Shown: in pieces, positions 37,621-39,266 of the stretch
Numbering within the stretch: the first letter of the stretch is position 1
Layout of the letters: the number at the start of each line of letters is the position of its first letter
The notes under the pieces: model-generated
What the model was told of the DNA's origin: nothing
What the model saw: the letters and a program-made list of their open reading frames with translations, nothing else
Database searches by the model: none
Translations under genes and position numbers: made by a program
Origin: Polyangium spumosum
GTDB lineage: Bacteria > Myxococcota_A > Polyangia > Polyangiales > Polyangiaceae
Reading direction: 5' to 3'
Length of the DNA stretch: 64,000 nt
Assembly (NCBI RefSeq): GCF_009649845.1
Contig: NZ_WJIE01000007.1
Location: 186,001 to 250,000, forward strand

Positions 37621-37751
37621 CTCGAGGGCACGACACATCGAGCGCGGTTCCAGCGAGACAAACGGTGCGCTTGAAACACCAGAAAACGAGCGCGGCGCGA
37701 GCTTGCCCGCGCCGGGGGGGCGGGTGTACGCTTGCATGGAGGACAGCGAGC

Positions 37752-38576
37752 ATGACCCTTGCGCTCCCGCCCGGCTGGGCTCTGCCAGCAGCGATCGAGG
37801 CTTACAAGCGACGGCAGGACATCGCGTCCGCTTGGCGCTCCGTGCTGAACGTGATCGCGGGCAAGAAGCGGCACGTGGTGGTCACAGGAATGTCTGGGGC
37901 GGGCAAGACGATGTTGCTCTCTGCGCTGACAGGAGCGGCGGAGCGACGGGGGTTCAGGCCGCCGGAGCGATCGCTCGGGGTCGAACGAGCGCGGGTGCAG
38001 GCGAAGGAGCCGCGAAGGAGGATCGCGCTTGCCGTGGTCCCGGGGCAACCGGGCTACCATCGCGTGGCAGCGCAGGATGACCTCCTGCTCTCGAAGAAGC
38101 CGGTGGATGGCGTCGTGCACGTGGTGTGCAACGGCTACGCCGCCTTCCACGCCGAGGCCGTGGCGATGCTGCGACGCCAGGGCGCATCGAGCCTCGAGAG
38201 CTTGCGGACGTACTATCACGACCGAGAGGCCGAAGACTTCAAGGAGACTCTCGATCTGCTCCGGAGAAGCTGGAAGAAGCACCACAAGCCGTTTTGGATG
38301 ATGGTGGCGGTCGCAAAGGCGGATCTGTACCAGGAGGGGCTCCCAGAAGCAGCCGCGCGATATGCTCCCGGCGGCGACGGTCCCTTCATCGACCTGCTGC
38401 GGGAGTTCCAGGGACGGATCGGCTCCGACAATTTCCAGTGGGACGCGCAGCCGGTGTGTTCGTGGTTGGAAACGTTCACGTACGGCGATGTGACGATTAG
38501 CCCGCAGATTGATATGATGAAGCGGGACCACTCACTGGCGATGTTCGCATCGACCCTGGAGCGTCACTGTGTCTAG
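37752..38576 (+). CDS. GTPase-like P-loop protein of a low-GC gene pair
   Basis: The protein is 274 residues from ATG 37752, preceded by GGAGGACAGCGAGC. Walker A is GMSGAGKT (46-53). A VVPGQPGY segment sits where small GTPases carry DTPGQ, and AKAD in MMVAVAKADLY corresponds to the NKxD specificity motif. The nucleotide could be GTP or ATP, and I do not recognise a named family. No membrane helix is present. Codon use has many A/T third bases (CTT, GCT, ACA, GGA, TCT), unlike its neighbours. It overlaps the next gene by 8 bases, so the two proteins probably act together. Confidence 0.72.
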   Translation: MTLALPPGWALPAAIEAYKRRQDIASAWRSVLNVIAGKKRHVVVTGMSGAGKTMLLSALTGAAERRGFRPPERSLGVERARVQAKEPRRRIALAVVPGQPGYHRVAAQDDLLLSKKPVDGVVHVVCNGYAAFHAEAVAMLRRQGASSLESLRTYYHDREAEDFKETLDLLRRSWKKHHKPFWMMVAVAKADLYQEGLPEAAARYAPGGDGPFIDLLREFQGRIGSDNFQWDAQPVCSWLETFTYGDVTISPQIDMMKRDHSLAMFASTLERHCV

Positions 38577-39174
38577 CGCGCAAGGTCCCAAGAAAGCGGA
38601 GCCGGAGAAGGACGAACTGTCGCCCGTCCCTGCGGGTCCCGTCTCGGCGACGGTGCCGTCGTCTCACAGCCACAGCACGGAGGAACCGAAGGAGAAGCCT
38701 GTTTCTTTCGACGAGCTGCAGGCACTCCTCACGCTCGCGGAGCGGCTACAGGAAAGTGTCGACGCAAAGCGGCTCAGATTGACGATCTTATGGGGATGCA
38801 TCTTCCTGCTACCGCCCTCCGCTATATTTTTATCCGTTTCTGGAGCGCTGCTGGCAGACAAAATCATCCCTGACGCACGCACTACCATTGCGTACGCTGC
38901 CGTATTTACCGCCATAATTGCAACCGGACTAGGCGCATTACATTGGATAATCCTACTGAGCCGCACGAGAGCGTTGCTGGACCGCGACAACCGCGCCCTC
39001 GCCGACGTCGCTGACATGCTGCGCGAAGCCGGAGGTGCCCTCGGCAAGGATCTGTCATCCGTCGGCCGCTTCATCATGCGCGTCCAAACCTGGCGACTCG
39101 ACATTGGCGTGAACCCCGACCCCAACGCTCCCCGCCCTCCCGGCGGCCGCGCCTCGCACCTCCCCCGAGCGTAG
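38569..39174 (+). CDS. Two-helix membrane protein partner of the GTPase-like protein
   Basis: The protein is 201 residues, starting with GTG at 38569 inside the end of the upstream gene. The first 50 residues are charged and Pro/Ser-rich. A helix with AERLQESVDAKRLR precedes two membrane segments at about 71-92 and 104-126. A third amphipathic helix and a Pro-rich tail follow. The membrane part is encoded by distinctly AT-richer DNA (CTA, TTA, ATA, TTT codons), rare in this genome. The overlap with the GTPase-like gene and the shared base composition suggest that the pair was acquired together. Function unknown. Confidence 0.7.
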   Translation: MSSAQGPKKAEPEKDELSPVPAGPVSATVPSSHSHSTEEPKEKPVSFDELQALLTLAERLQESVDAKRLRLTILWGCIFLLPPSAIFLSVSGALLADKIIPDARTTIAYAAVFTAIIATGLGALHWIILLSRTRALLDRDNRALADVADMLREAGGALGKDLSSVGRFIMRVQTWRLDIGVNPDPNAPRPPGGRASHLPRA

Positions 39175-39266
39175 GTCCTTCCGCGCTACCCCTTCGCGCC
39201 CCCCTCCGCCGGCACTTGACGCCGGGCGCGTGAATCCCGTACGCCTTGAAACGTCGTTCGATCGAA

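Follow-up and report, generated by a model that had tools for sequence, protein, structure and literature searches.

The pair of genes analyzed here lies on the forward strand of a 64,000-nucleotide stretch of Polyangium spumosum DNA (the window, in whose coordinates all positions are given). Gene A encodes a putative P-loop GTPase and gene B a predicted small membrane protein, and both fall within a segment that is delimited by comparison with other members of the genus. The features of the locus are as follows:

37621..39200, no strand assigned: inserted segment; left edge approximately at the permease stop codon, right edge approximate (same-genus comparison)
37752..38576, + strand: gene A, 274 aa, predicted P-loop GTPase of an uncurated family (ORF translation, full-length relatives, all-against-all BLASTP)
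37887..37910, + strand: Walker A/G1 motif GMSGAGKT, gene A residues 46-53; G46, G51 and K52 invariant in a nine-sequence alignment
38034..38048, + strand: G3-like motif VVPGQ, gene A residues 95-99; usual Asp absent, Gln kept
38313..38324, + strand: G4 motif AKAD, gene A residues 188-191
38569..38576, + strand: overlap of genes A and B, 8 bases (ORF coordinates)
38569..39174, + strand: gene B, 201 aa, GTG start, membrane protein with a two-helix hairpin predicted from hydropathy
38797..38853, + strand: gene B predicted membrane helix 1, residues 77-95 (Kyte-Doolittle scan)
38902..38958, + strand: gene B predicted membrane helix 2, residues 112-130 (Kyte-Doolittle scan)

A preliminary description of this DNA, made from the letters alone, had reported the 8-base overlap, which is exact, and had read GMSGAGKT, a PGQ segment and AKAD in the first protein and two membrane helices in the second; each motif is present, and protein B has the two hydrophobic segments listed above. 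A promoter scan returned a single weak site, located inside gene A. Single-sequence structure predictions (mean pLDDT 41.3 and 47.9) were too poor for a fold search.

The same description held that both genes use codons that are rare in their surroundings. GC3 is 0.803 in gene A, 0.701 in gene B and 0.516 in the helix region of gene B, against a mean of 0.918 (sd 0.024, minimum 0.893) for 11 neighboring genes, which were chosen by eye within the window and form a local rather than a genome-wide reference. The lowest 62-codon stretch of these neighbors never falls below 0.73. Membrane helices alone do not account for the low value of gene B, since the adjoining ABC permease, also a membrane protein, has a GC3 of 0.96. 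The claim thus stands for the composition of both genes but was too broad as to codons: CTA (four occurrences), TTA (three) and ATA (three) are all in gene B, with none in gene A, where the deviation is mild, and the strongest codon signal comes from gene B alone. Gene B is itself a mosaic in composition, with a GC3 of 0.78-0.80 at both ends and of about 0.5 in the helix core.

The locus was compared with five same-genus genomes (G001-G005). Homologues of the flanking ABC ATPase, permease, TPR-like lipoprotein and purK genes (names assigned by eye, without a family search) occur in the same order in all five, and none of the five contains a match to gene A or gene B. The gap between the permease and lipoprotein genes, measured between tblastn matches, is 72-88 bases in every congener and approximately 1.6 kb in the window. 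The empty site in five of five congeners identifies the pair as a precise, strain-specific insertion. In G036, from another genus, the lipoprotein match is only 35% and no permease was found within the 9 kb examined. A search of its edges showed no repeats flanking the segment, and its ORFs, read by eye, include no integrase-like gene. The proposal of the preliminary description that the pair was acquired recently and as a unit is well supported by the empty site, the foreign codon use and the recurrence of the arrangement elsewhere (other phyla, plasmids and a Mu-like phage contig); in the five congeners examined it does not occupy this position, as an old core pair would be expected to.

Protein A belongs to a divergent family of putative GTPases, of which 11 members, including that of the window, were collected. 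With the Era/Der/Ras-like TRAFAC GTPases (Pfam MMR_HSR1), the family has in common the G1 motif (GxxxxGK[ST]), present in the window protein, and the G4 motif ([NT]KxD), in which Lys and Asp are kept in 11 of 11 members and the first residue is Ala in the window protein. Unlike these GTPases, eight of the 11 members lack the Asp of G3 (DxxG), which is present in the proteins of Rhodococcus, G413 and G1137 and is Val in the window protein; eight of 11 keep the Gln that follows PG. The window protein also scores below the MMR_HSR1 cut-off (17.3 bits vs 21.9), and three of the 11 lie above it (Rhodococcus, 28.4; G477, 27.5; G1137, 28.9). A search of solved structures with the family profile retrieved Der (4.3e-8) and HRas (2.8e-6); the four Midasin entries that rank above them score through many weak AAA domains. 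A PADLOC match of gene A to Mad8 of the MADS system (E 2.9e-6, 25 bits) was rejected as an identification because it covers just the P-loop region (residues 38-172) rather than the full length, and this model is unspecific, matching 105 places in the P. spumosum genome with scores of up to 141.8 bits. Neither protein of the window pair has a PADLOC match that extends beyond the P-loop.

Members of the family are found on plasmids of Bacteroidota and Actinomycetota, in genomes of Pseudomonadota and of the window's own phylum, and on a Mu-like phage contig. Searches of plasmids with tblastn yielded relatives from Hymenobacter (E 3e-26), Georgenia (3e-18) and Streptomyces (1e-9). A second plasmid round added a Rhodococcus GTPase; the three plasmid records that carry it are equally long and were counted as one member, one of them being examined. 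Profile searches contributed G096, G400, G477, G413 and G1137, and a scan of viral contigs with the G477 protein led to the phage copy, L086 (40% identity, E 6e-62). In all-against-all BLASTP, the window GTPase is linked at E ≤ 1e-3 to eight of the nine others compared (E 9e-36 to 5e-4); G413 joins through the Rhodococcus and Hymenobacter GTPases, and the G1137 GTPase by profile only (E 2e-21). The family is rare and patchy: with six or eight candidates scored per genome, so that all counts are lower bounds, it occurs in at least four of 289 genomes of the window's class (the window included), at least one of 48 in the class of G477 (G477 itself) and at least one of 385 in the class of G420, and at least one strong match was found among 398 genomes of the phylum of Phaeospirillum (Pseudomonadota). 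Further viral-contig scans with P0001, P0002 and the Hymenobacter and Rhodococcus GTPases gave nothing new, a scan with the phage GTPase found only itself, and annotated phages contained no match to either the window or the phage GTPase. Matches confined to the P-loop were dropped, although some could be distant relatives; these comprised weak matches in three genomes of one genome search, seven weak loci (24 to 98 residues matched) and, in the profile searches, 40 of 43 genomes at E ≤ 1e-4 and 11 of 12 at E ≤ 1e-6.

Directly downstream of ten of the 11 GTPase genes, on the same strand, lies a gene for a short membrane protein in which hydropathy predicts a two-helix hairpin (the window, L014, L016, L026, L027, L071, L072, L086, L091 and L104). 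Because only the GTPase was used to find the members, the partner constitutes independent evidence; in a control set of 40 other annotated genes from three plasmid loci, two encode proteins of 90-215 aa with exactly two such segments. The spacing between GTPase and partner ranges from an overlap of 14 bases to a separation of 6 bases, with the partner start codons of L016 and L071 chosen by us, and the longest partner ORF of G1137 would overlap its GTPase by 43 bases. In the phage copy, the overlap is again 8 bases. The Georgenia GTPase is the member that has no partner gene, and in the Rhodococcus partner a third helix is predicted at the C-terminal end. At G1137, two different membrane genes, each encoding two helices, follow the GTPase in tandem (L105:3397-5216, - strand). 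An extra small membrane protein, of which a shorter stretch has no Pfam match, is encoded directly downstream of the Streptomyces pair (L016:10111-10500, + strand).

Sequence similarity ties together a subset of the partners: those of Hymenobacter, G477, phage L086 and Streptomyces are mutually homologous (BLASTP E 4e-10, 7e-7 and 7e-4). Gene B of the window has no BLASTP match to the other partners at E ≤ 1, and its alignment to the partner profile (hhalign E 0.076, vs 0.29 for a control protein) did not suffice to join it; the control value falls within the range given by the partners of G400 (0.55), Rhodococcus (0.25) and G096 (0.70). In the absence of significant similarity, the pairing of gene B rests on position and architecture. 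Gene B has no Pfam match at all. The helical ends of the partners may lie in the cytoplasm.

The pair has moved among genomes, plasmids and a phage, and, as the preliminary description had suggested looking for, it recurs beside different genes in other phyla, on plasmids and in a phage contig. Copies reside on Hymenobacter, Streptomyces and Rhodococcus plasmids, the last between conjugation genes for a TraM-recognition protein and a MobF relaxase. When ten neighboring proteins were searched with PADLOC, eight had no match; the others were, on the Hymenobacter plasmid, a GmrSD/SspE-like protein and, in G400, a BrxHI/Lhr-type helicase, both lying approximately 6 kb from their respective pairs. 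Several chromosomal copies stand alone among ordinary-looking genes, and no clear defence island was seen around the chromosomal copies. Beside the G477 pair, a 231-aa protein without a Pfam or PADLOC match is encoded (L072:7050-7745, + strand). Each of two similar proteins of the P. spumosum genome (L095:1159-2430, + strand; L097:1234-2325, - strand) combines a membrane helix at the N-terminus with a coiled-coil-like stretch and an atypical G domain (GKT/S, DWGGEH, NKSD); they appear to be membrane-anchored GTPases unrelated to the pair.

The one phage copy found lies on L086, a 7,251-base IMG/VR contig. Its genes gave above-cut-off matches to Portal_Mu, Phage_Mu_F, Phage_tail_S and Mu-like_Pro, and its protease shares 89.2% identity with the protease of Pseudoalteromonas phage HS6. 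The pair sits between the gpG-like (Phage_tail_S) gene and the protease gene. The same slot also holds a gene for a channel-like membrane protein (L086:3635-4384, + strand; Ion_trans_2, 38.7 bits), which is possibly a third component or else a separate moron. We inspected the gpG-to-protease slot in six hand-chosen phages of the 166 with a related protease. It contains a type I-E anti-CRISPR gene (AcrIE) and a winged-helix gene in DMS3, AcrF3 in MP48, and, in Shewanella phage MuM16-1 (L099:1627-4453), a reverse transcriptase with a match to the model of type VI retrons (RT_VI, E 3.2e-96), a regulator and an opposite-strand two-helix protein. In HS6 the slot is occupied by a GDSL hydrolase gene and small genes but not by the pair, and in Mu and a Vibrio phage it is empty. 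Passages of earlier work locate anti-CRISPR genes in the interval bounded by the head protease/scaffold and gpG homologues (PMC4704812) and describe a low GC content for the accessory region of this slot (PMC4378225, which in its passages also mentions Rex). The slot supports a role in phage conflict in general, which could equally mean counter-defence. The suggestion in the preliminary description that the pair may be a defence or signalling system gains from the phage copy in an anti-CRISPR and retron slot and is held back by chromosomal copies that are not in clear defence islands.

We propose, at about an even chance of being correct, that the pair is a mobile two-gene module of phage conflict in which a GTPase switch gates a membrane effector. 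Protein A would be a cytoplasmic GTPase switch and protein B a small hairpin membrane protein with its helical ends in the cytoplasm, to which A would bind and which it would control. We infer that a signal from an infecting phage alters the nucleotide state of A, and that the changed A releases or reshapes B such that the membrane is breached or depolarized, which would protect against phage by abortive infection. Alternatively, released or reshaped B could block the entry of phage DNA, resulting in superinfection exclusion. A bolder version, which we put forward only tentatively and consider somewhat less than evenly probable, is that the pair is an immune module with a GTPase-gated membrane effector, simpler than any other known so far, in which a Ras-like switch whose Mg-binding motif is degenerate restrains a two-helix pore former and phages and plasmids carry the pair to exclude competitors.

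Other functions would be compatible with parts of these data. An MglA-like switch brought to the membrane by B could regulate secretion, surface or stress responses, as a host signalling or polarity module spread by transfer and not for phage conflict. The VxPGQ form of G3 without Asp does resemble the TVPGQ of MglA (passages of PMC4316618, and an MglA-like protein of the P. spumosum genome, L094), and chromosomal copies lie among ordinary genes; however, that MglA-like protein reaches just 5.5 bits against the family profile, a constant signalling role would not predict a phage cargo slot, and the sparse distribution in the classes of the window and of G420 fits it poorly, so that we regard this explanation as unlikely, if with some real weight. 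Small hairpin membrane proteins can be toxic, and B might be a membrane toxin that A restrains, in which case mobile elements would retain the pair as a toxin-antitoxin or addiction module. Such a module would suit the overlapping two-gene order and the carriage on plasmids and a phage, but a large conserved enzyme such as A would be an unusual antitoxin, Georgenia retains A without B, and G1137 has two B-like genes in tandem; we consider it quite unlikely.

A function in the life cycle of the plasmid or phage itself, such as entry exclusion in conjugation or control of lysis or entry, with no part in host defence, would explain the position of the Rhodococcus copy between a TraM-recognition protein and a relaxase and that of the phage copy in a structural module adjoining a channel-like gene. 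The chromosomal copies have no such neighbors, however, and the closely related phage HS6 does without the pair, leaving this reading a small chance. Finally, the lack of significant similarity between gene B and the other partners would be expected if the window's B were an unrelated membrane gene that lies behind A by chance. This is very improbable, as its position, 8-base overlap and hairpin architecture are all those of the phage partner, and both genes lie within one inserted segment.

If the proposal of a GTPase-gated module of phage conflict is correct, a minimal two-gene combination of GTPase and membrane protein, far simpler than the DO-GTPase systems, joins the repertoire of phage conflict and is compact enough to be studied directly by genetics and structural methods, and the gpG-to-protease slot of Mu-like phages becomes a place to seek more such modules. 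As the preliminary description supposed, the pair appears to be undescribed: no model in Pfam, NCBIfam, PADLOC 2.0.0 or PHROGs describes it, and we recognized no description in the literature, with subscription journals mostly outside coverage and absence from them thus unproven. The GTPase family, with members from at least four phyla and one phage, is likewise missing from the curated models used.

Among known systems, lambda RexB is a small membrane effector of abortive infection or exclusion. The pair resembles it as a phage-borne small membrane protein with a cytoplasmic sensor, the sensor here being a GTPase. The phage copy occupies the slot known for anti-CRISPR genes, but the window copy is chromosomal and outside any phage, and the pair is not one of the anti-CRISPR families named in the passages of PMC4704812 and PMC4378225. 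With the MglA small GTPases (passages of PMC4316618), protein A has in common a PGQ without the G3 Asp (TVPGQ vs VVPGQ). Unlike MglA, gene A is longer, mobile and rare, and its partner is a membrane hairpin rather than MglB; their resemblance stops at the motif, with a profile score of just 5.5 bits (E 5, search space of 10000 sequences). The 2TM SLATT effectors have the two-helix hairpin in common with the partners by hydropathy, but no SLATT model in Pfam matched any partner searched (E limits from 10 down to 0.001). DO-GTPase models gave only a P-loop match in the Streptomyces member (9.9 bits vs 27) and were not among the best 25 of 29 families for the window protein, and the gene that follows A encodes the 201-aa membrane protein, with no downstream GAP1 gene found. 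Although it consists of two genes only, with one single-domain GTPase, no zinc ribbons and no GAP1, the pair finds its nearest described idea in the DO-GTPase/GAP1 conflict systems with 2TM SLATT effectors, which, in passages of Kaur et al. (2020; PMC7159879), likewise join a TRAFAC-type GTPase as the presumed switch to a 2TM protein as the presumed effector.
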